From Pseudanabaena sp. FACHB-2040 (lineage in GTDB: Bacteria; Cyanobacteriota; Cyanobacteriia; Phormidesmidales; Phormidesmidaceae), in NCBI RefSeq assembly GCF_014696715.1, contig NZ_JACJQO010000008.1:124001-188000 (forward strand): a stretch of DNA of 64,000 nt, in the 5' to 3' direction. Shown one piece after another: positions 5,536-64,000 of the stretch. Under the pieces are notes generated by a model. It was given only the letters and a program-made list of their open reading frames with translations, made no database searches and was not told the origin of the DNA. The position numbers and the translations under genes were made by a program. Each line of letters starts with the position of its first letter. Positions within the stretch are counted from its first letter, which is position 1.

Positions 5536-8500
5536 CTAGCCAGCGCTTTGATGGGTGATTGGCCCGGTGGCAGAGGCAGGAGAATAGGGCTCCAGCACCT
5601 CCCAGTTACTCAAAACTGAGGACTCTAGCAGTTGAAGAATCCGCTGCAGCGGTATGTCTACCCAGTCTGGGCGGCTGTTGAGTTCGTAGCCCAGCTCGTA
5701 GATTGACTTCTCAAACAGGTAGGCATCTAGCAGGGCTTTTAGTTCCGGCTGAGTTTTGGGGATAAAAGAGGCATCCTCAGCGGTAGCCAGATAGGCATTG
5801 ATAAACGTAGCACTCACCCACGAGTACCAATACTGTGCCCACTGTTCCATGACCGGCAGATTGTCAGGCCGAATCAGGCCGTTGGCGACCTCGTTGCGAA
5901 AAGCTAGGGTCAGCGCATGGTTAAAGGATTGCAGCATCCCCGCCACGTCCCGCAGGGGCGATCGCTTGGTTCGCCGCTCTGCCAGGGGGCGCGCCGCTTC
6001 TCCCTCAAAGTCAATGATGACAAAATCTTTACCGGTAAACAGCACCTGCGACAGCCGGTAGTCGCCGTGACAGCGAATTCGGGTTGCCGAGATCGGCTGA
6101 GTGAGTAGGGCTTTGATGCGATCGCGAATCTCCCCCTGGCGGCTCAAGATGGTCTGGGCCAAGAGCTGCGTATCTGGCAACAGGGTCTCTAGCCGCTTCT
6201 CTAGCAGCAGCAGCACCTGCTCTGTCAGATCTCGCATATCTTGATACACCGAGCGCTGGTGCTGAAGTGAAAAGGCTTCTGGCGCAAAGTCAGGGTTTTC
6301 TGAATCAGTTGCCAAAGCTAGGTGCATCTGAGCGGTGCGCTGCCCCAGCAGTTTGACCGTATCTAGGTAAGAAACAATGATGTTGTAGCTAAATGAGGGC
6401 GCTTTTCGATTTAGCAGCTCCACCAGGGAGCGTGAGGGCAGCTTAACCTGATGCAGATCAGCCTCGGGCAGCACCATTACCCGCTCAAAGTAGTTGCGCA
6501 GGCAGTCTAGCGTAAAAGACCAGGCATCAATGCTGTTGGCGACAAACTGCTGGGCAATGGCCAGCGTCATCGTCTCACCGCTAGGGTGGTGATATTCCCA
6601 GGCCCCCACTACCGGAGCAAACTGCTTTAGCTCCGGCTTCTGCATTAAGAAGCGGCCAATTTCCAGATCGGGGTTAATGCCATTTTCAAGCTTGCGGAAA
6701 AACTTGAGAATGAGCCGGTTGCCATACACCACAGAAGAATTGCTCTGTTCCTCCTTAATTGGCGAAGGCTTAAGCTCATTTCGGTTGAGTTGGAGCCAGC
6801 TAACCCTATCGGTAGCAGTTGCCACCAGTTTCCCAGCAAGGCCCTGGTACTGGTGCTGATGGGCAATGGCGGCCAGCGATAGGCTCAAAAAGTCTTTGTC
6901 AGCTAGAGCATCGTAGAGCACTCCACCAATGTTTTGCCCCTGCATCTGGAGGTTTGCTAGCCCATGCTGGTAGTGCTCACCAATGCGCTCACTGCCTACA
7001 GATTCCTCGGCGTAAGCAAGCGGCAGCATATAAACTTCAGAGCTGCTTTCGCTGTAGATCACGCGCAGTAGAACTATGTAGGCGGTTGCGCCCGCTGTTT
7101 CAGGCGCAGGGTCGGGCACCAGTGGGATGGCTTCAGTAATTTGAGTTGATTGAATGGTGCGAGCTTTGCCGCTAAACCAGCGCCGAGTCGGCAGATAGTC
7201 TGACAAGATGGCTTCCAACGCCGCCTTTGCCTGGGGTTGAGAAAAGACGTTGTGCCACTTTCCCTCAACCACTAAAGCAGGATGTTTAGACTGTGGCTCT
7301 GGTAGGGCAGCTGTGGCCTGAGGCTGTAGGGCAAACCAGTAAAACCCGTTGCTACCTAGGCTCAGAAAGTAGCGATCTTCTCGAATCAGCGGAAACTGAG
7401 TGCCCGCAAAGATCTCAATCGGAACTGTCCCTGCAAAAGCAGACAAATCTAGCTCCACCGTTTGAGCAAAGCGCGATAGGTTAGCTACCACCAGCATGTG
7501 TTCATTGCCGTAGCTGCGGGTAAAGGCCAGCACCTTGCGATTCGTCGTATTTAACAGCTCAAAGCTCCCCCGCCCCAAAGACTGAAAGCGCTTGCGCACA
7601 CCGATAGCGCGTTTGGTCCACCACCAGAGAGAGCTGGGGTTGAGCTGCTGAGTTTCAACGTTGATCGCCTCGAAGTGGTACACCGGATCAATAATTACAG
7701 GCAAATGCAGCTGCTCCGGGTCGGCGCTGCTAAAGCCTGCATTAGGGCCAGTATTCCACTGCATTGGGGTGCGCACGCCATTGCGATCGCACGCATTGAG
7801 ATTATCTCCCATGCCAATCTCATCACCGTAGTAGAGCACAGGCGTGCCCGGCATTGAGAGCAACAGACAATTCATCAGCTTGATCTGGTTCTGATTGTTG
7901 GCCATCAGCGGGGCCAACCGCCGACAAATCCCTAGATTAATCCTCGCCTCGGTATCTTGGGCATAGACCCGATACATATACTCTCGATCCTGATCGCTGA
8001 CCATCTCTAGCGTCAGCTCATCATGGTTACGCAAAAACAAAGCCCACTGGCAGTTCTCAGGAATCTGAGGCGTTTGCTGCAGGATATCTACAATGGGAAA
8101 GCTATCTTCCAGCTGCAGCGCCATAAACAGCCGAGGCATCAGGGGAAAGTGAAAGGTCATGTGGCATTCATCGCCCTGGCCGTAGTAGGCAGCGGCATCT
8201 TCAGGCTGTTGATTAGCTTCAGCTAAAAGCATCCGATTAGGATAGTTTTCGTCTATGTGACGCCGCAGCTGCTTTAAAAAAGCATGGGTTTGGGGCAGGT
8301 TCTCACAGTTCGTCCCTTCCTGCTCATATAGATAGGGCACAGCATCTAGGCGCAGACCATCAACGCCCATCTCCAGCCAGAAATCAGCAATATCAAAAAT
8401 GGCCTGTCGTACCTGAGCACTTTCAAAATTTAAGTCTGGCTGATGGTGATAGAAACGGTGCCAGTAATAAGCCCCAGCAACCGCATCCCAAGACCAGTTA

Positions 8501-8967
8501 GACGGCTCAAAGTCTTGGAAAATAATGCGAGTTTCCTGATATTTTTCCGGGCTGTCGCTCCAAACGTAGAAATCTCGCTCTTGGCTTCCCTCAGGCGCGG
8601 TGCGGGCCGCCTGAAACCAGGGGTGCTGGTCAGAGGTATGGTTAACCACCAGCTCAATAATGACCCGAATACCCCGCTGGTGAGCAGCCTCTAAAAACGT
8701 TTTGAAATCGCCTAGAGTGCCATAGATCGGGTTGACGCTGTAATAGTCAGAAATATCATAGCCATCATCCTTTTGAGGCGAGGGAAAAAAGGGTAATAGC
8801 CAGATAGCGGTAACTCCTAAATCCTGCAGATAATCCAGCTTTTTTGTCAGCCCTGGAAAATCACCAACTCCGTCACCGTTGCTGTCGGCAAAAGCTCGAA
8901 TAGAAACCTCGTAGATAATAGCGTCCTTAAACCATAAAGAATCGTTGTTTAACGTCAAAACCTGCAT
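5536..8967 (-). CDS. treS: Trehalose synthase-maltokinase fusion (TreS-Mak)
   Basis: An 1143-residue two-enzyme protein. Residues 1-550 are a GH13 trehalose synthase that interconverts maltose and trehalose. The nucleophile Asp is in DGLRLDAVPY (about 208), the acid Glu in LLAEANQQ (about 247) and the third acid in RNHDELT (about 318). From about 566 it becomes a maltokinase-like domain with the phosphotransferase motifs RCHGDYRLSQVLF (about 968) and IIDFEGEAARP (about 983). The fusion couples trehalose/maltose conversion to maltose-1-phosphate formation, the entry to the GlgE alpha-glucan route. No GlgE is adjacent. The ATG at 8967 has GGGGAAAG just upstream and is preferred over the in-frame ATG at 8994, which has no ribosome site. 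Trehalose here probably serves osmotic or desiccation tolerance. Confidence 0.93.
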   Translation of the reverse strand: MQVLTLNNDSLWFKDAIIYEVSIRAFADSNGDGVGDFPGLTKKLDYLQDLGVTAIWLLPFFPSPQKDDGYDISDYYSVNPIYGTLGDFKTFLEAAHQRGIRVIIELVVNHTSDQHPWFQAARTAPEGSQERDFYVWSDSPEKYQETRIIFQDFEPSNWSWDAVAGAYYWHRFYHHQPDLNFESAQVRQAIFDIADFWLEMGVDGLRLDAVPYLYEQEGTNCENLPQTHAFLKQLRRHIDENYPNRMLLAEANQQPEDAAAYYGQGDECHMTFHFPLMPRLFMALQLEDSFPIVDILQQTPQIPENCQWALFLRNHDELTLEMVSDQDREYMYRVYAQDTEARINLGICRRLAPLMANNQNQIKLMNCLLLSMPGTPVLYYGDEIGMGDNLNACDRNGVRTPMQWNTGPNAGFSSADPEQLHLPVIIDPVYHFEAINVETQQLNPSSLWWWTKRAIGVRKRFQSLGRGSFELLNTTNRKVLAFTRSYGNEHMLVVANLSRFAQTVELDLSAFAGTVPIEIFAGTQFPLIREDRYFLSLGSNGFYWFALQPQATAALPEPQSKHPALVVEGKWHNVFSQPQAKAALEAILSDYLPTRRWFSGKARTIQSTQITEAIPLVPDPAPETAGATAYIVLLRVIYSESSSEVYMLPLAYAEESVGSERIGEHYQHGLANLQMQGQNIGGVLYDALADKDFLSLSLAAIAHQHQYQGLAGKLVATATDRVSWLQLNRNELKPSPIKEEQSNSSVVYGNRLILKFFRKLENGINPDLEIGRFLMQKPELKQFAPVVGAWEYHHPSGETMTLAIAQQFVANSIDAWSFTLDCLRNYFERVMVLPEADLHQVKLPSRSLVELLNRKAPSFSYNIIVSYLDTVKLLGQRTAQMHLALATDSENPDFAPEAFSLQHQRSVYQDMRDLTEQVLLLLEKRLETLLPDTQLLAQTILSRQGEIRDRIKALLTQPISATRIRCHGDYRLSQVLFTGKDFVIIDFEGEAARPLAERRTKRSPLRDVAGMLQSFNHALTLAFRNEVANGLIRPDNLPVMEQWAQYWYSWVSATFINAYLATAEDASFIPKTQPELKALLDAYLFEKSIYELGYELNSRPDWVDIPLQRILQLLESSVLSNWEVLEPYSPASATGPITHQSAG

Positions 8968-9043
8968 TTCTTTCCCCGTCTTACCTCTAACCATCGATAG
9001 AGTTGGGCCCTAAAGCTGAACTAACTCTGTCTCAAAAATAAGT

Positions 9044-9087
9044 ATTTCCTATTCCTTTCCCTTAACTATTCCTTAAATATAGGAAAT
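9044..9087. promoter_or_regulatory. Inverted repeat upstream of treS
   Basis: Perfect 9-bp arms ATTTCCTAT (9044-9052) and ATAGGAAAT (9079-9087) with a 26-nt spacer lie 77-120 bp upstream of the treS start in an AT-rich stretch. It could be an operator or part of the promoter; no protein can be assigned. Confidence 0.3.
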
Positions 9088-9100
9088 TCAAATGAAATGC

Positions 9101-9298
9101 CCTCCCCTGATAGGAGGGGAGGACGGGGAGAGTGGAGGAGTGAATAGGTGGATGGGTGGATGAAATGGGATGGATGGGGAGGCAGAGGTTTGGAGTTCTG
9201 GGCTTTGTGCTTTCTGAGGGGAGGGTGCATCTGGGCTAGACTTATCCTAATTCTTTAACTAGCCGCTACTCGTCCACCCATCCACTCTCCTACCCCTT
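9101..9298. repeat. Paired G-rich / C-rich minisatellite arms
   Basis: A G-rich arm (9119-9182, units like GGATGGGTGGATGA) faces a C-rich arm (9268-9298, CGTCCACCCATCCACTC). Transcripts could fold into a long imperfect hairpin. The same element occurs at four other spacers in this window. A short CCTCCCCT/AGGGGAGG hairpin directly precedes it. It lies in the 5' region of treS. Confidence 0.6.
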
Positions 9299-9369
9299 AT
9301 CTGCAGCTTTTGGTGTGCCCGTGAGCTGAAGCCGTGGGTTCTTTGTTAGGTTAGCCCGGTTAAACATCA

Positions 9370-9412
9370 AAAAAATGGACACGCTCACCCTTCCTAAGCG
9401 TGTCCATTTTTT
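9370..9412. terminator. Strong bidirectional terminator
   Basis: A perfect 16-bp stem: AAAAAATGGACACGCT (9370-9385) and AGCGTGTCCATTTTTT (9397-9412) with an 11-nt loop. The flanking A and T runs give a T tract in either direction. It lies 26 nt beyond the stop of the minus-strand gene at 9439. Confidence 0.85.
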
Positions 9413-9438
9413 GTGTACTCGTAGGCTAGCAGCTAGCC

Positions 9439-9750
9439 TTAGTAGCCAAAAGCTCGGGTTTGTTTTTCGTTGAAGGGCTTAGATTTCTTTTCATAGCACT
9501 GCAGCCCTGCGTTGCTAAGAACGATCTGGTGGCCCTGGAAGTGGTGAAACTCACCGCTGACTGCGCCTTCCCAGTCACCGAGATCGCGGGCAGTCTCTAG
9601 AAAGCGCTGAAAGGTCTTGGTTCTGATTTCGGCAATAACGACGTAGCCATCGCAGAACACTTCGATTTTGGTGAAGCCTTTTGAGCCAGGCCCCGCCAAA
9701 GGAACACCGCTAAATTTAACTCTGACGTCAACTCGTCCTTTCGCAGGCAT
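9439..9750 (-). CDS. Small conserved cyanobacterial protein of unknown function
   Basis: 103 residues, no signal peptide or membrane segment. The beginning KGRVDVRVKFSGVP, the middle IEVFCDGYVVIAEIRTKTF and the tail LSNAGLQCYEKKSKPF resemble a small cyanobacterial family often annotated as FinO-like, recalled from memory rather than checked. If that is right, an RNA-binding role is possible but unproven. It stands alone with its own strong terminator downstream. Confidence 0.6.
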   Translation of the reverse strand: MPAKGRVDVRVKFSGVPLAGPGSKGFTKIEVFCDGYVVIAEIRTKTFQRFLETARDLGDWEGAVSGEFHHFQGHQIVLSNAGLQCYEKKSKPFNEKQTRAFGY

Positions 9751-10207
9751 TTTTCGGGTCTTTTTTCAGGTCGATTGTGTGCAGTATTGCTGCTCTTATC
9801 ACAATAGCTCAGCCGGTCTGGCTCTCGCACTAGGCATAGAACTGGCCGGTTTTGTGCTGAGCGCAATCGCATCTCGATAGTTTTCCATTTTTGAGGATTT
9901 CTGGCAAGGGGGAAATTTGCGATCGCACCAAACCCAGGCCAAATCAAGCGGGAGAGAATCATTACAGCGTCTCTGACTAGGCCAAGCGGCAGCCAACTAA
10001 GCCGCCAGCAGCTTTAACACAGCAAGAATCAACAAGACAAGATTCGCCTGGCCCATTTAGTGTTGGGCTGCTGATGTGCTGCCGACTGGCATCCATCCAT
10101 CTAAACTTCCGTGGAGCGGAATTCCCGAGACAGCTCCATTTCCTATTTCGCAATAGCCTCCCGATACGTTTCCCCCTAGCAGCTTCTAGGCAGCCCCTAC
10201 AACCCCT
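9751..10207. other. Intergenic spacer with no recognisable gene
   Basis: About 450 nt between divergent small genes. It contains one GCGATCGC site and several weak palindromes such as GGCAGCC/GGCGGCTT. No reading frame here has recognisable protein features. Promoters for both flanking genes are presumably inside. Confidence 0.45.
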
Positions 10208-10447
10208 ATGCCCGAGCAAAACCTCGAACCTCTATTTCTACAGCCCCTCGATCCGTGGCTGCGCGAACAAATTTTGCGGCTCAGTGTCGATATGCTGAGC
10301 GTAGGACTTTTGACCTGCACCGCCTGCGAAAAAGTGTTTGGTGAATACATCCTAGAGTACAAAGGCGAGACATTTCGGCTGCCAGCAGGCAAAGCCTACG
10401 CATTTCTCAAGTACGTGCAAGAAACGACAACCGATTCATTCCAATAA
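10208..10447 (+). CDS. Small protein of unknown function, upstream of redox two-component pair
   Basis: 79 residues, family not recognised. It has a two-cysteine motif CTACEKVF near the middle (residues about 37-44), followed by a short beta-like segment YILEYKGETFRLPAG. It ends 14 nt before the receiver/thioredoxin-reductase fusion and reads in the same direction, so it could be the first gene of that operon. The paired cysteines make a redox or metal role conceivable, but this is only an inference. Confidence 0.5.
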   Translation: MPEQNLEPLFLQPLDPWLREQILRLSVDMLSVGLLTCTACEKVFGEYILEYKGETFRLPAGKAYAFLKYVQETTTDSFQ

Positions 10448-10461
10448 CCCAGCGCCCTACC

Positions 10462-12129
10462 ATGAGCAAACCTGTCCTTCTGACCGTGGACGACGATGCG
10501 GATGTGCTGCAGGCAATTTCTCGTGACCTGCGCAAGCAGTATGGCGATCGTTACCGGGTGCTCCGAGCTGATTCTGGCAGCGCCGCCCTCGATACCCTGA
10601 AAAAGCTCAAACTCCAGAATGACTCTGTGGCGCTGATGCTGGTAGACCAGCGGATGCCCGAGATGAACGGGGTTGAGTTTTTAGAACAGGCACTAGAGCT
10701 TTTTCCAGAGGCAAAGCGGGCGCTGCTGACTGCCTATAGCGATACCGATGCGGCCATTCGTGCCATCAACGAGGTCAGCCTCGACTATTACTTAATGAAG
10801 CCTTGGGACCCGCCCGAAGAGCAGCTGTACCCAGTAATTGATGACCTGCTAACCGATTGGCAGGCCCACTTTAAGCCTCCCTTTGAGGGCATTCGCGTCA
10901 TCGGCGATCGCTGGAACCCGCGCAGCCACCAGGTAAAAGACTTTCTATCGCGCAACCAGATTCCCTACCGCTGGATGGACGTTGAGCAAAACAAGGAAGC
11001 TGTCACCCTGCTTGAGTTGACGGATTTGGAGAAGCCAGTGCTGCCGCTGGTGCTCTTTCCCAATGGCGATCGGCTGGTGCAGCCCAGCAACACCCAGCTA
11101 GCCGCTAAGGTGGGGCTGCAGACGGTCGCGGCCAAGCCCTTTTATGACCTGGCCATCATCGGCGGCGGGCCTGCCGGACTGGCAGCGGCAGTCTATGGTG
11201 CATCGGAGGGGCTGCGGACGGTGCTGATCGAGCGCGAGGCCCCTGGCGGACAGGCGGGCACCAGCTCTCGGATTGAAAACTACCTGGGCTTTCCGGTAGG
11301 GCTCAGCGGCAGCGATCTGGCTCGACGAGCCGTCAGCCAGGCCCGCCGCTTTGGGGTCGAGATTTTGTCGCCCCAGGAGGTGCAGGGCCTGCGGGTAGAA
11401 AACGATTATCGCTTCATCACCCTCTCTGACGGCATTGAGATTAGCTGTCACGCGCTGATTTTGGCCCTAGGCGTTTCCTGGAAGCGGATGAACACCATAC
11501 CCGGCATGGAACGGTTAACCGGAGCCGGGGTGTATTACGGAGCCGCCCAGACCGAGGCCCTAGCTTGCGCCGATGAGGATGTCTACATTATTGGTGGCGC
11601 TAACTCGGCCGGACAAGCCGCCATGTACTTCTCTAAGTACGCGCGCAAAACTACCCTGCTTGTGCGGGGCGACTCGCTCACTAAAAGCATGTCTCAGTAC
11701 CTAATTGAACAGATTGAGGCGGCTCCTAATATTGAGGTGCTGGCTCATACCAGCGTGATTGAGGCCAAGGGAGAGACTAGCCTAGAGGCGCTGGTGCTGC
11801 AAAATTCTCAGACGGGCGCAACAGAGACGGTGCCCACCAACTCTCTGTTTATCTTTATCGGCGCAATGCCCCGCACTGAATGGCTAGATGGGCTGGTTCA
11901 AAGAGATGAGCGGGGCTACCTGCTGACCGGGGGCGAACTTGAGTCAGAGGTGCCGCCTGCTCAGGTTTGGCCGCTGGAGCGACCGCCCTACCTGCTAGAG
12001 ACCAATGTACCCGGCGTGTTTGCCGTCGGAGATGTGCGGCGTGGATCGGTTAAGCGGGTGGCTTCTGGGGTGGGCGAGGGGTCAATCTGCGTTCAGTTTG
12101 TGCATCGGTACTTAGGCGACCTGCTATGA
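10462..12129 (+). CDS. Response regulator fused to thioredoxin-fold and thioredoxin-reductase-like domains
   Basis: 555 residues in three parts. A receiver (1-125) has TVDDDAD, phospho-Asp62 in MLVDQRMP and the Lys in YLMKPW. A glutaredoxin/thioredoxin-fold segment (about 145-220) has no CxxC. A FAD/NAD(P)-binding thioredoxin-reductase fold (about 228-550) has GGGPAGLAAA (about 233), IIGGANSAGQAA (about 376) and the FAD-binding VFAVGDVRRG (about 520). Where true thioredoxin reductases have CATC, this one reads VYYGAAQTEALACADED (about 358-372), so the redox-active disulfide is missing. It therefore probably oxidises NAD(P)H onto another acceptor or senses flavin/nucleotide state. Its stop overlaps the next gene's start (ATGA), pairing it with a histidine kinase. 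Confidence 0.88.
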   Translation: MSKPVLLTVDDDADVLQAISRDLRKQYGDRYRVLRADSGSAALDTLKKLKLQNDSVALMLVDQRMPEMNGVEFLEQALELFPEAKRALLTAYSDTDAAIRAINEVSLDYYLMKPWDPPEEQLYPVIDDLLTDWQAHFKPPFEGIRVIGDRWNPRSHQVKDFLSRNQIPYRWMDVEQNKEAVTLLELTDLEKPVLPLVLFPNGDRLVQPSNTQLAAKVGLQTVAAKPFYDLAIIGGGPAGLAAAVYGASEGLRTVLIEREAPGGQAGTSSRIENYLGFPVGLSGSDLARRAVSQARRFGVEILSPQEVQGLRVENDYRFITLSDGIEISCHALILALGVSWKRMNTIPGMERLTGAGVYYGAAQTEALACADEDVYIIGGANSAGQAAMYFSKYARKTTLLVRGDSLTKSMSQYLIEQIEAAPNIEVLAHTSVIEAKGETSLEALVLQNSQTGATETVPTNSLFIFIGAMPRTEWLDGLVQRDERGYLLTGGELESEVPPAQVWPLERPPYLLETNVPGVFAVGDVRRGSVKRVASGVGEGSICVQFVHRYLGDLL

Positions 12130-59083: not shown

Positions 59084-59320
59084 CTAGCTTGTAGCCTTTC
59101 CTAGCCTGCGGCTCATGACGCTGATGTATTCACCGTTTCTGCCGGTGGCAACGGGGTCGATCCAGGCGGTGCGATCGCAGTAGCCCAGCACCTCCATACG
59201 GTTGATCGCCCTGACAACAGCAGAGTAATCCCCCAGCAAAATATGGCAGAGCCGATCTGGGTGGTACGAGGGCAATCGAAAATTTGAGGAGCTGTTCTCC
59301 CCTTCAGGTGATTGAAACAT
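59084..59320 (-). CDS. Small conserved cyanobacterial protein
   Basis: 78 residues. The segment HILLGDYSAVVRAINRMEVL, then GYCDRTAWIDPVATGRNGEY and ISVMSRR, matches a small cyanobacterial family recalled by pattern; the function is unknown. The helix-plus-arm layout suggests a small binding protein. It is convergent with the RNA-binding-protein gene. Confidence 0.7.
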   Translation of the reverse strand: MFQSPEGENSSSNFRLPSYHPDRLCHILLGDYSAVVRAINRMEVLGYCDRTAWIDPVATGRNGEYISVMSRRLGKATS

Positions 59321-59550: not shown

Positions 59551-60528
59551 CTAACTTATATCCAGCGGGCTCCTCACCCCACGCCCCCCTTGATTTAGCA
59601 CATGGGTATAGATCATTGTGGTTTTGACATCCTTATGGCCCAGCAATTCCTGAATTGTGCGTATGTCGTAGCCGTTTTGCAGTAGGTGAGTCGCAAAGCT
59701 GTGGCGAAACGTGTGGCAGCCAACTCGCTTGTGGATACCAGCACTTCTAACAGCTTGTTTGACAGCTTTTTGCAAGCCGCTCTCATGCAAGTGATAACGC
59801 ACAACAGCTCCGCTGCGAGGGTCGCGACAACGCGTTGACGACGGAAAGACAAATTGCCAAATCCACTGGCGATTGGCATTTGGGTACTTGCGGGCTAATG
59901 CAAAAGGCAATACCACCGCACCATAGCCCTGCTCCAAATCTTGCTGATGGAGCCGCTGCACCATCTTTAAGTGTTCCTGCAAGGGATTAACTGCGCTTGT
60001 AGGCAGCATGGTCACCCGGCTCTCTTGCCCCTTTGCATTTCTCACAATAATTTGGTGCTGGGGAAAGTCCAAGTCCTTAATCCGCAACTGCATGGCTTCC
60101 CGCAGCCTTAGCCCACTGCCATAGAGCAACTGAACGATAATGCGATGGACACCCGACATGTGCTGCAGTACAGAACGCACCTCATCAGGAGTTAGCACAG
60201 TCGGCAGCTTCCGTGAGCGCTTCGCTCTGATAGCGTCAATCCTGCCATCTAAAGGCTGACACAGAACTTCTTGATAGAGAAACAGCAACGCGCTCAGAGC
60301 TTGATTTTGAGTAGCAGAAGCTACATTTCCTTCAACAGCCAAGTGAGTCAAAAATGCCTCAATCTCAGGCACCCCCATCTCTTTAGGATGTCGCTTGTTG
60401 TGAAAAAGGATAAAGCGACGAATCCATTGAACGTAGGTTTCCTCAGTGCGGTACGAGTAGTGCTTTACGCGAATGGTATCGCGAACTTGATCCAGCAGCT
60501 TCTTGGGAGGAGGCTGATTAGACTCCAT
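59551..60528 (-). CDS. intI: Integron integrase (IntI-type tyrosine recombinase)
   Basis: 325 residues from the ATG at 60528 (MESNQPPP). An upstream in-frame start at 60561 is less likely. N-terminus [20 protein letters not shown] and [20 protein letters not shown], then [20 protein letters not shown]: the standard integron-integrase spelling. Catalytic residues: Arg in [13 protein letters not shown]-x-x-R in [12 protein letters not shown], His in [15 protein letters not shown] with the Tyr nucleophile. The extra IntI-specific segment before the HxxR box ([20 protein letters not shown]) is present. The tail [10 protein letters not shown] is typical. It is transcribed away from the cassettes, as in classical integrons. 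Confidence 0.93.
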
Positions 60529-60609
60529 AGGGTAGATGCACACTAAATAGACAGTAAACAAAACCTAAGCAATCTAGCCCGCTAGAAGAAGGGGTGGTTA
60601 TACTGAATT

Positions 60610-60732
60610 TTTCCACCTAATCACCCTCACAGGCGTGTTAGGCTGACGTATTTCCACCTAATCATCTCTATAGGGTGATTAGGCTGATGTATTTCCACCT
60701 AATCACCCGTATAGGGATATTAGGCGGAAACT
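60610..60732. repeat. 41-bp tandem hairpin repeats upstream of intI
   Basis: TTTCCACCTAATCACC occurs at 60610, with near-identical copies at 60651 and 60692: an exact 41-bp period, three units. Each unit carries an inverted repeat; unit 2 is perfect, CCTAATCA (60657-60664) and TGATTAGG (60676-60683), and the others vary on both arms. Unit 1 contains GTTAGGC (60637-60643), which fits the integron core GTTRRRY. The set lies 82-204 bp upstream of the integrase ATG, where attI and the cassette promoter are expected. Confidence 0.75.
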
Positions 60733-60744
60733 TTCCCTCTAAAC

Positions 60745-60764
60745 AATTGTTAGCCTGCTTCGTT
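60745..60764 (+). other. Candidate attI recombination point
   Basis: GTTAGCC lies at 60749-60755, directly before the first cassette gene and next to the 41-bp repeats. It fits the GTTRRRY core except at one position. A cut after the G would begin the first cassette at 60750. Assignment is by position only. Confidence 0.4.
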
Positions 60765-60816
60765 TGCTGGTGAGTCAGACGAAAACACTTGCAGAGCAAT
60801 TTTCAAAGTAGTTTGT

Positions 60817-60849
60817 TCAATAAACGTTTTTTGTGCTAACGTTTATTGA
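60817..60849. promoter_or_regulatory. Operator palindrome upstream of marR
   Basis: Perfect 12-bp arms TCAATAAACGTT (60817-60828) and AACGTTTATTGA (60838-60849), spacer 9 nt, ending 18 nt before the ATG of the MarR gene. It has the size and position of a MarR autoregulatory operator. Confidence 0.7.
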
Positions 60850-60867
60850 GTGAATGGCATTGGCTTT

Positions 60868-61425
60868 ATGAAGAGGCGAACAACCCCGAAACAGTCCTTA
60901 AAACATTCAAGCCCATCAATCAACTCACCTACCTTTAACAACCACGAATTGGACTGGGAGCCTTTGCCTGAATGTCTTGGTCGTTGGACAGGCTTCGTGC
61001 TGCATTGGGTAACTGAGCTTGGTTCACAGTTTTATGCTCGTGCGATGGCTCCCTTAAATTTACGCCCGCTTCAGGTTGGTATTCTCCAATTACTAGCGGG
61101 TGAAGGTTCAATGGTTCAAGCACGACTTGGTGAGAGGCTGCGTGTTGATAAAGCTACAATGGTTACTCTTCTAAATGACTTAGAAGAGCAGGGCTTGATT
61201 GAACGACGACCTCATGCACACGATCGTCGAGCTTATGAAATTCATCTTCTAGAAGCTGGTAAGCAACGCCTTCAAGCAGCAGAAAAATTATCAGTTGAAG
61301 CTGCACAACAATTCTTTTCCACTTTGACACCTCAGGAACAGCAAACTCTCAATGAACTGTTGAGGCGAGTTGCAACAAGCAACGCCTCATGGAAACCGTC
61401 AGCGCTTAAAGATACTGCCGAATAA
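60868..61425 (+). CDS. MarR-family transcriptional regulator (cassette gene)
   Basis: 185 residues from the ATG at 60868; a GTG at 60850 directly abutting the operator is the alternative. MarR winged helix: LRPLQVGILQLLAGEGSMVQ, ARLGERLRVDKATMVTLLND and LEEQGLIERRPHAHDRRAYE (the wing with DRR). The N-terminus is basic and variable. It is the first gene of the first integron cassette and is followed 32 nt later by a membrane-protein gene it probably controls. A self-contained operator fits mobile cassettes. Confidence 0.9.
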   Translation: MKRRTTPKQSLKHSSPSINSPTFNNHELDWEPLPECLGRWTGFVLHWVTELGSQFYARAMAPLNLRPLQVGILQLLAGEGSMVQARLGERLRVDKATMVTLLNDLEEQGLIERRPHAHDRRAYEIHLLEAGKQRLQAAEKLSVEAAQQFFSTLTPQEQQTLNELLRRVATSNASWKPSALKDTAE

Positions 61426-61457
61426 CTCAGGCTAACAATACAAGAGGTACAAACACT

Positions 61458-61910
61458 ATGAGTACAGCAATCATTGTTTTCGTAGTTGCTGCTTTTGCAA
61501 CCTTTTTCAATAACGCTTTGCATTGGTACACACAAGTTACAACTTATCCGCTTCTAAGTTGGGTTGGGCAAGCAGAGTTCGTATCGTTCCACAAAGAGTA
61601 TGAGCGTAGACTACCATTCAGCATTTACGTACCTTACACGCTGCTGATGTTCAGTACACTTCTCCTGATATTCCTCCGTCCGGTAGAAATCGAACTTGGA
61701 TGGGTGTTCGTGTTACTTGTACTGAATGCGTCCATTATGATCGTGAGTCTTGTCTTTGCTGTCCCGATTCATACTCGGCTTGATCGTCAGGGTTATTCCG
61801 ACAAAGCTGGGATTCGTGAACTCATTCGATATAATCGCGTTAGACTCATCATCTCATCAACCAGTAGCATCGTTATGCTGTACTTAATGGTAGGTTTGTT
61901 GATGAGCTAG
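61458..61910 (+). CDS. Four-helix membrane protein (cassette gene)
   Basis: 150 residues, four predicted membrane helices (IIVFVVAAFATFFNNALHWY, YVPYTLLMFSTLLLIFL, WVFVLLVLNASIMIVSLVFA, a last one near LIISSTSSIVMLYLMVGLLM). No family could be named. AAGAGGT 8 nt before the ATG is a good ribosome site. It shares the cassette with the MarR regulator and ends 37 nt before the attC site. Confidence 0.75.
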   Translation: MSTAIIVFVVAAFATFFNNALHWYTQVTTYPLLSWVGQAEFVSFHKEYERRLPFSIYVPYTLLMFSTLLLIFLRPVEIELGWVFVLLVLNASIMIVSLVFAVPIHTRLDRQGYSDKAGIRELIRYNRVRLIISSTSSIVMLYLMVGLLMS

Positions 61911-61946
61911 CCAGCAAATCTCCTGTAGTTGGTCGTATGATCAGCA

Positions 61947-62034
61947 CGCTAACAACCTGGTTGGAGCGGACTGACACAAGATCTTGGTAGAGATGCAAAG
62001 GCTGCTGATAGCCGCTCAACCGGAGCGTTATGCA
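61947..62034. other. Integron attC site
   Basis: R'' with GCTAAC (61948-61953), L'' TTGGAGCGG (61961-61969), L' CCGCTCAA (62012-62019), R' with GCGTTATGC (62025-62033). L'' and L' pair except for one extra G in L'', the extrahelical base that is the hallmark of attC. The AAC/GTT pair is conserved and both R-L spacers are 7 nt, with CTGG/CCGG pairing. The site closes the MarR cassette; the exchange point is after the G at 62027. Confidence 0.85.
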
Positions 62035-62075
62035 ATCTATACACATTCGTAAGTTTGCAAAAGAGGAGAGAACAT

Positions 62076-62450
62076 ATGGCGATCAGGGGAAGCTGCCACT
62101 GCGGGAAGACTGCCTTTTGCATCGAGGGTGATATTCCTGCGAAACTTACTCGGTGCACTTGTTCCTTTTGTTCCAAACGCGGTGCGCTGTGGGCGTACTA
62201 CCAGCCTAGTCAGTTTCAAATAACAACCTCATCAACTGACGATGCGACTTATCGCTGGAATACGAAATCTGTAGTGCATCACTTCTGCCCTGAGTGCGGG
62301 TGTACCACGTTCTCCGATAGTCCCGCTTTTGAACTGGACGGAAGTTGGGACAAAAGCACCCGCCGAATCGGCGTTAATGCACGTCTGTTCGACAACTTCG
62401 ATGCAGCCACAGCGTCTATCGAGGTTATCGACGGTAAAAACCTCTGGTAG
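62076..62450 (+). CDS. GFA-family (glutathione-dependent formaldehyde-activating-like) protein, cassette gene
   Basis: 124 residues with AGAGGAG 8-14 nt before the ATG. Zinc-binding cysteines: GSCHCGKTAF, CTCSFCSKRG and CPECGC, the GFA fold pattern. Related proteins are found in many integrons and chromosomes; most are not true S-(hydroxymethyl)glutathione synthases, so substrate is unknown. It forms the second cassette, beginning just after the attC site. No closing attC is recognised downstream. Confidence 0.85.
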   Translation: MAIRGSCHCGKTAFCIEGDIPAKLTRCTCSFCSKRGALWAYYQPSQFQITTSSTDDATYRWNTKSVVHHFCPECGCTTFSDSPAFELDGSWDKSTRRIGVNARLFDNFDAATASIEVIDGKNLW

Positions 62451-63234: not shown

Positions 63235-63813
63235 ATGCTAGGCAACTTGCGTATACCAAAAGAAGTCCGCAGAAAAATAGATGACGAGCTTCAGCCCGGA
63301 GAACTTATAAGATGGGTGGATCAGCCTGTGCCTCAATTGATCACAGCATCTTTCATCGTAAGTGCTTTTTTGGGTATTCCCTGGACTAGCTTTGCCATAT
63401 TTTGGATGTGGGGAGCATTGGGGTTCAAACTCCCCAATTTACAAGCAGGTTTACAACCTGAGCATCTGTTTGCTCTTTTCGGTGTACCTTTCGTGCTGAT
63501 TGGGTTTGGAATGCTGTCTAGTCCCCTATGGATGTGGCAAGCAGTACGGAAAACAGTTTACTTGGTTACAGATCAACGAGCTATCTCAATTGAGGGTGGT
63601 TGGTCTACTACTATTAGAAGCTATCTACCTGAGCAATTAGCAAATGTGTACCGGAAGGAAAGAACAGATGGAACGGGTGATGTAGTTATTGTGATTCGGC
63701 ACTGGAAAGACAGTGATGGCGATCAAAGGACTGAAGAGATAGGATTTCTAGGAGTTCGTAACCCCCGAGAAGTTGAAAAAATATTGAAGCAGTTGGCTCA
63801 AAATGCTGCCTGA
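63235..63813 (+). CDS. PH-domain-like (bacterial PH) membrane protein
   Basis: 192 residues. Two or three membrane helices (IVSAFLGIPWTSFAIFWMWG and ALFGVPFVLIGFGMLSSP), then a bacterial PH-like domain with YLVTDQRAISIEGGWSTTIRS and VIVIRHW. The N-terminal LQPGELIRWVDQP is typical of the family. It may be a third cassette gene separated by IS debris, or a native gene. Function unknown. Confidence 0.75.
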   Translation: MLGNLRIPKEVRRKIDDELQPGELIRWVDQPVPQLITASFIVSAFLGIPWTSFAIFWMWGALGFKLPNLQAGLQPEHLFALFGVPFVLIGFGMLSSPLWMWQAVRKTVYLVTDQRAISIEGGWSTTIRSYLPEQLANVYRKERTDGTGDVVIVIRHWKDSDGDQRTEEIGFLGVRNPREVEKILKQLAQNAA

Positions 63814-64000
63814 CAAAACCCATACACTTCGATCGCCGAAAGGAGATCTCTGAAAACGGAAGCGTAACTGTGGGGGGTAATGGCCAACGTTCACCCGGTG
63901 AGGACGCTAATCAACTGGCAGATGGTGCAGCTGAGTCCGACCTAGGCCTGAGATGGGAACTGACTTTTGTGAGGTAAAGGACAGGGGGGAGCTTAGTGTA
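63814..64000. other. Right edge, no gene recognised
   Basis: 187 nt, purine-rich, with no coding frame. No attC core could be aligned. It looks like structured, non-coding DNA. Confidence 0.3.

Follow-up and report, generated by a model that had tools for sequence, protein, structure and literature searches.

A probable enlarged attI site with predicted integrase-binding repeats beside intI in Pseudanabaena sp. FACHB-2040, and similar arrays at places that lack intI

The three tandem repeats upstream of the integron integrase gene in Pseudanabaena sp. FACHB-2040 very probably belong to an enlarged attI site as its accessory portion, in which seven accessory half-sites, predicted to be bound by IntI, lie beside the recombination core. 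Judging from the sequences compared here, enlarged attI arrays of this type look common in cyanobacteria and also seem to occur at many places without intI in the same genomes. Of all our findings, these scattered orphan platforms surprised us most. All coordinates given below without a contig or locus name refer to the window, which is the whole stretch of 64,000 nucleotides that was analyzed.

The first-pass annotation described three 41-nt copies at 60610, 60651 and 60692 with a spacing of exactly 41, and this description was borne out. Copies 2 and 3 are 76% and 73% identical to copy 1, respectively, Tandem Repeats Finder reported a period of 41 with 2.8 copies (score 154), and, with 10.5 bp to a helical turn, the period amounts to 3.9 turns. 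Every unit encloses an inverted repeat, which is perfect in unit 2 (CCTAATCA/TGATTAGG), and the GTTAGGC motif ascribed to one of the units is located in unit 1, all as previously described. The earlier statement that units 1 and 3 have changes on both arms was wrong over 8 bp: the left arm is CCTAATCA in all three units, and the right 8-bp arm alone differs (GTGTTAGG, TGATTAGG and ATATTAGG in units 1, 2 and 3). Each 41-bp unit consists of two inverted copies of one 18-bp half-site with the consensus gGGttaTTAkrCrGAAA, and the feature is larger than first noted, comprising eight such half-sites, alternately inverted, between the start of intI and an attI-like core. With a half-site matrix, seven strong sites were identified between 60592 and 60731, together with a weak one next to the core:

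60592..60609, + strand: half-site nearest intI, 17.7 bits
60609..60626, - strand: half-site, left arm of unit 1, 18.2 bits
60632..60649, + strand: half-site, right arm of unit 1, with GTTAGGC, 13.3 bits
60650..60667, - strand: half-site, left arm of unit 2, 14.4 bits
60673..60690, + strand: half-site, right arm of unit 2, 14.8 bits
60691..60708, - strand: half-site, left arm of unit 3, 18.1 bits
60714..60731, + strand: half-site, right arm of unit 3, 20.6 bits
60731..60748, - strand: L-box-like half-site of the attI simple site, reading CCCTCTAAACAATT on the + strand, 7.6 bits

The other features of the locus are those of an integron, and the array is placed adjacent to and upstream of intI, as is an attI:

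59551..60561, - strand: intI, integron integrase gene, as an ORF from a TTG (TIGR02249, 476 bits, cut-off 265)
60749..60755, + strand: attI R-box core GTTAGCC, with conservation across 44 loci fading on its cassette side
60750..62027, + strand: first cassette, with a MarR-family gene (60850-61425) and an unassigned ORF (61458-61910)
61947..62033, + strand: attC, with L boxes forming 11 pairs with one extrahelical base and the R' box GTTATGC
62055..62450, + strand: GFA-family gene of the second cassette (Pfam PF04828)

This intI gene is the only TIGR02249 match over the cut-off in the 6.28-Mb genome, and an ATG at 60528 is a likelier start than the TTG. The weak half-site at 60731-60748 is inverted relative to the R box, as is an L box. 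The core GTTAGCC is one base off a strict GTTRRRY, and the cassette and attC beyond it are correctly oriented; at 60 intI loci, all 92 attC matches likewise fall on the strand opposite intI, which is the cassette orientation. Crossover is expected after 60749, and the two ends of the first cassette, 60750 and 62027, follow from the positions of the core and the attC. The attC scored 77.5 bits with a covariance model (R1) built from 11 cyanobacterial attCs, one from the window and ten from these intI loci, and this score is high by construction since the site is one of the rows from which R1 was built. No clear attC was found after the GFA-family gene, the best downstream match to the model (63808-63895) having 17.4 bits and an E-value of 0.045. 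Inside the first cassette, a 12-bp perfect inverted repeat (TCAATAAACGTT/AACGTTTATTGA) at 60817-60849, just 5' of the MarR-family gene, is possibly an operator.

Conservation beside intI in other genomes had been named in advance as support for the repeat, and the same architecture was indeed found in relatives. An 18-bp matrix was seeded with one unit and trained on the regions upstream of intI in the window and 80 relatives, excluding regions shorter than 120 nt; sites above 7 bits numbered 546 in these training regions versus a mean of 39 in shuffled sequence. Upstream sequence of 250 nt or more was available at 69 loci, 56 of which have at least one convergent pair of half-sites, compared to 0/345 mononucleotide shuffles, a result that is description more than test because these loci also supplied the training data of the matrix. 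This recurrence, like the folding of the array far beyond that of shuffles, shows that the feature is no product of chance. At least two units are present in 48 of the 69, and the number of units per locus ranges from 1 to 6. The spacing is regular across loci, with convergent half-sites 22-24 bp apart (159 cases), divergent ones 17-18 bp apart (176 cases) and those of the same orientation 40-41 bp apart (225 cases). The 13 loci without a unit include most of the Chloroflexota loci, in which half-sites are single or fewer.

A second set was obtained by a family search of 386 cyanobacterial genomes, 25 of which have an IntI at E <=1e-50. Twenty-six intI places were read, three of which were set aside as duplicates of earlier loci, and at least one unit was identified in 10 of the 23 that were counted (L139, L141, L144, L146, L148, L159, L161, L162, L163 and L164). 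Six of the 13 places without a unit belong to family f20, which is cyanobacterial with small genomes and has intI; the misses also include one place with only 116 nt upstream, one match that begins at the contig start and one gene without its first part. A strict unit pattern searched blindly matched 14/386 genomes and its reversed control 8/386, which makes this search weak alone, and most of the multi-site matches were seen by eye to adjoin an intact or broken intI start; the informative part of this search is that multi-site context alone.

When 44 loci were anchored on the core, with the AAC fixed by the construction of the search, conservation persisted on the array side and faded on the cassette side. 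It thus ends at the crossover point, as in an attI. The arrays also follow the integrase phylogeny: on a tree of 85 IntI rows, 62 of them with arrays, the array label requires 6 changes versus a mean of 20.3 in shuffles, none of 500 being as low. The clades without arrays are f20, a group of L093, L096 and L140, a Pseudanabaena pair (L086 and L088) and most Chloroflexota loci, while the long branches of IntI1, the Shewanella phage IntI and L153 are placed unsurely on this tree. In the Pseudanabaena pair, the standard half-sites are absent and a ACAAGATAAATA-like repeat occurs at 17-bp spacing instead, which may be a half-site of changed specificity.

The first-pass annotation also suggested that the units could be foldable recombination sites. 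They would then act as small attC-like sites in single-stranded form; we considered along with this the possibility of a structured leader of the intI mRNA. On each of the two DNA strands the array does fold far more stably than its shuffles (z -7.3 and -6.9), and it matches the attC model weakly (17 bits, E 0.059). However, good folding on both strands is what any such array must show, because it is inverted. Across 180 hairpin pairs, the likeness of the two arms is about that expected from composition, the partners resemble each other no more closely than do those of 200 abutting pairs or of the skipped pairs, and pairing at stem positions 4 and 5 is below expectation. Positions 10 and 13 (and 11 in the hairpin class and one skipped class) show a slight excess, which non-hairpin pairs share and which is expected because the sequence is kept alike within one array. 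Nor do the mismatches favor a strand, with G-T in 223 cells versus A-C in 250. In an alignment of 23 units, the hairpin covariation score was reached by 107/500 shuffles, whereas abutting pairing, which gives no usable hairpin, scored higher (14/500 shuffles). No Rfam family scored above its threshold, and the array has neither the compensatory changes nor the family match of a structured RNA; likewise, it lacks the extended hairpin kept by pairing that marks an attC, having no covariation and just 17 bits with the attC model. A hairpin or RNA function of the units was therefore rejected on covariation, and we regard this explanation as highly improbable. With no covariation between partners and no strand bias of mismatches, the units look like double-stranded integrase sites, and we infer that each half-site is bound by IntI as double-stranded DNA.

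Another suggestion was that the repeats are operator sites, to which IntI or another regulator would bind mainly to control the transcription of intI. The position of the array, about 65-220 bp upstream of the likely intI start codon, is consistent with this, and so is the TTCAGTATAAY motif in the site nearest intI, which is kept among near relatives. On the other hand, no sigma-70-type site turned up in 60500-60900 when this interval was scanned with a promoter consensus, the attI core directly adjoins the array, and, as described below, arrays persist together with attC where intI is absent, so that an operator role is not the whole story. As the main function it is unlikely in our opinion; as a putative secondary role it is possible, and the overlap of the array with the 5' region of intI would permit autoregulation.

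The third suggestion, that the repeats are integrase-binding repeats of attI, is the one we favor, as a prediction supported by the conservation beside intI, by the core and its cassette, and by the match to DR1 and DR2 of attI1 presented at the end. We infer not only binding by IntI but also cooperativity and effects on recombination and regulation. IntI monomers would bind the double-stranded array cooperatively, and the array-bound integrase would then load the core, that is, the L box plus GTTAGCC. It would also set the geometry in which a single-stranded attC is held in the synapse. This role is modelled on what DR1 and DR2 are thought to do in the attI1 of class 1 integrons, with more sites. 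The convergent accessory sites start 23 bp apart, versus 12 bp from core to L box in the relative L214, and the extra distance of about one helical turn may allow binding without cutting.

The first-pass annotation stated that copies of the repeat dispersed over the genome and unconnected to intI would refute its interpretation. Scattered repeats were found, but most of the scattered arrays adjoin an attC in cassette orientation and so stay linked to integron recombination. The further copies of the element in this genome, at 72-87% identity, include the following:

C1:183 kb, C5:117 kb, C5:1082 kb and C5:1153 kb: full orphan arrays (at least six adjacent pairs)
C4, C19 and C26: partial arrays

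Two of the full orphans retain the first intI codons only, and the same truncated intI is found at C1 and C5:117 kb. One border of the scattered copies coincides, by eye, with an attI-like core. The attC model gave 30 matches in this genome at E <=0.1, and at all five full arrays (the four orphans and the intI locus) an attC in cassette orientation is found on the side of the core, about 0.7-2.0 kb away and, at the four orphans, within 2.1 kb. Sixteen other attC regions that were fetched from this genome have no array, apart from one isolated pair of sites; such lone attCs might be what is left of platforms that have decayed, or might have been inserted at genomic sites.

We also compared the orphans in pairs. 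Between C1 and C5:117 kb, 0/49 key half-site positions differ versus 74/609 in the adjoining region (p 0.004) and 6/90 at the other array positions (p 0.09). For C5:1082 kb and C5:1153 kb, the corresponding numbers are 4/49 at the key positions versus 125/660 in the adjoining region (p 0.08) and 25/87 at the other array positions (p 0.005). The adjoining region in both comparisons includes a coding gene. This retention of the half-sites modestly suggests use after the loss of intI.

A family of small proteins, about 80-95 aa long and with no Pfam match above the cut-off, is encoded next to several orphan arrays (L118:8360-8605 and L120:7238-7516), and by eye the window ORF at 59084-59320 on the - strand resembles it. 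The small neighboring ORF was considered as a partner of the integrase and dropped, because the family is dispersed, with 45 matches in this genome, and arrays are near just 4 of the 30 matches that were fetched, two of the four being pieces of one copy.

Orphan arrays are not confined to this genome. We built a sequence model of the array and ran it against 15 genome entries, two of which (G175 and G395) have identical coordinates and are seemingly one genome, and it matched in 13; the two f20 genomes had no arrays and no attC among the matches listed. Regions away from intI with at least two matches or E <=1e-6 were taken as orphans, a rule chosen with both lists already known, and 32 such regions from nine genomes were fetched. 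A chain of at least three half-sites is present in 31 of them, and tblastn found 30 of the 32 to be without intI and two to have a stub. At 23 of the 31 array-bearing loci the nearest attC is within 5 kb and points away from the array, and an attI-like core was identified on the attC side in 21 of these 23 by eye and in 22 by pattern. Overall, 46 of 48 attC sites point away from the nearest array and two toward it. At the remaining 8/31 loci no attC was matched; one or more of their arrays are near a contig end. The missing intI is not merely an assembly gap, since the one-contig genome G012, which has a single IntI, has five orphan regions, three of them with attC.

Two further observations concern the arrangement of arrays and cassettes. 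At L258 (G186:C33), three full attI arrays lie in a row within 6196-11756, alternating with attC sites (7197 and 9383), which gives the impression of a repeated module of array, gene and attC. In another case, three places in a single genome (L250, L251 and L252), attC matches lie about 105-310 bp from the array, near 7588-7893, and two of them have equal attC scores; attC sites so near the array imply very short or empty cassettes.

These data also bear on the explanation that the element is a dispersed repeat, such as a MITE or a REP-like sequence, that came to lie next to intI by chance. Its presence elsewhere in the genome at 72-87% identity would fit, as would the two copies that share both the truncated intI start and a small neighbor gene of a dispersed family. 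However, the repeat is conserved beside intI across many genera, all four full orphans here and 23/31 loci elsewhere have attC in cassette orientation, and the attI-like core is on the attC side in nearly all of the latter. The link of the scattered arrays to attC thus weakens this explanation, which we consider extremely unlikely.

The usual description of an integron, which comes mostly from clinical and Vibrio systems, has one integrase, a single attI and one queue of cassettes. One hypothesis, which we put forward tentatively and hold to be somewhat short of an even chance, is that of a distributed integron, in which one integrase would act in trans on scattered attI platforms, each with its own array and cassettes, and in which the orphans would be kept by selection once they have lost intI. 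The plain alternative is that the orphan platforms are the decay of once complete integrons, which the data do not separate from service in trans. A distributed integron would mean many parallel landing sites instead of one cassette queue. Should the orphan arrays be active, genes can be brought to many chromosomal positions by cassette capture, and loci resembling CALIN need not be dead integrons. Furthermore, if cyanobacterial IntI uses at least seven accessory sites, the natural series of one to six units can serve to test the role of such sites in attI x attC synapsis. The array is also a sequence signature with which attI can be located in genomes whose annotation normally omits it.

Among the known systems closest to the array is the attI1 of class 1 integrons. 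Scanning 420 nt of a class 1 integron with the half-site matrix at a threshold of 3 bits gave four hits, three of which are ACGATGTTACGCAGCAGG, TTGATGTTATGGAGCAGC and TTTGTTTTAGGGCGACTG; these we take to be DR2, DR1 and the L box of attI1, respectively. They score just 3-5 bits, which is below the threshold used for the arrays, and the top hit in this stretch (8.1 bits) falls in a cassette gene. Like the window array, attI1 adjoins intI, has an R box beside an L box with CTAAA, and has supplementary integrase sites, here predicted, on the intI side. The window sequence at the place that matches the attI1 boxes is CCCTCTAAACAATTGTTAGCC. There are two accessory sites in attI1, in direct orientation and 19 bp apart in our scan, versus seven in the window, alternately inverted in a 41-bp repeat. 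The direct orientation of the attI1 type is thus not seen in the array as a whole, where every second site is direct to the core.

According to the available parts of the literature, the L box of attI1 is CCCTAAA and its R box GTTRRRY, and IntI1 binds four regions (PMC12901181); attI is recognized as double-stranded DNA, and the direct repeats favor attI x attC reactions and may be topological filters (PMC8946536). The same text, as far as available, describes DR1 and DR2 as supplementary sites of attI1 and reports no such repeats for the attIA of Vibrio cholerae (PMC8946536), which like the window site is an insertion site beside a chromosomal intI. The arrays are therefore not needed for integron function in general. 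The window units resemble attC sites in their inverted boxes, which are similar to RYYYAAC and GTTRRRY. However, attC is described as an imperfect hairpin that is recombined as a single strand (PMC8946536, available part) and is about 86-88 nt long in these genomes, whereas the window units are 41 bp and without hairpin covariation.

Searches of the open-licence PMC literature listed no title devoted to attI arrays of cyanobacteria or to orphan attI platforms. The closest parallels to the orphan loci are CALIN, the clusters of attC lacking integrase, which also have attC cassettes away from intI (PMC9024848, available part), and delta-attI cassettes, which also have pieces of attI apart from intI, the pieces being 14-18 nt with one exception of 244 nt in the available part of the source (PMC12901181). 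Unlike both of these, the orphan loci described here retain the accessory array together with the core.
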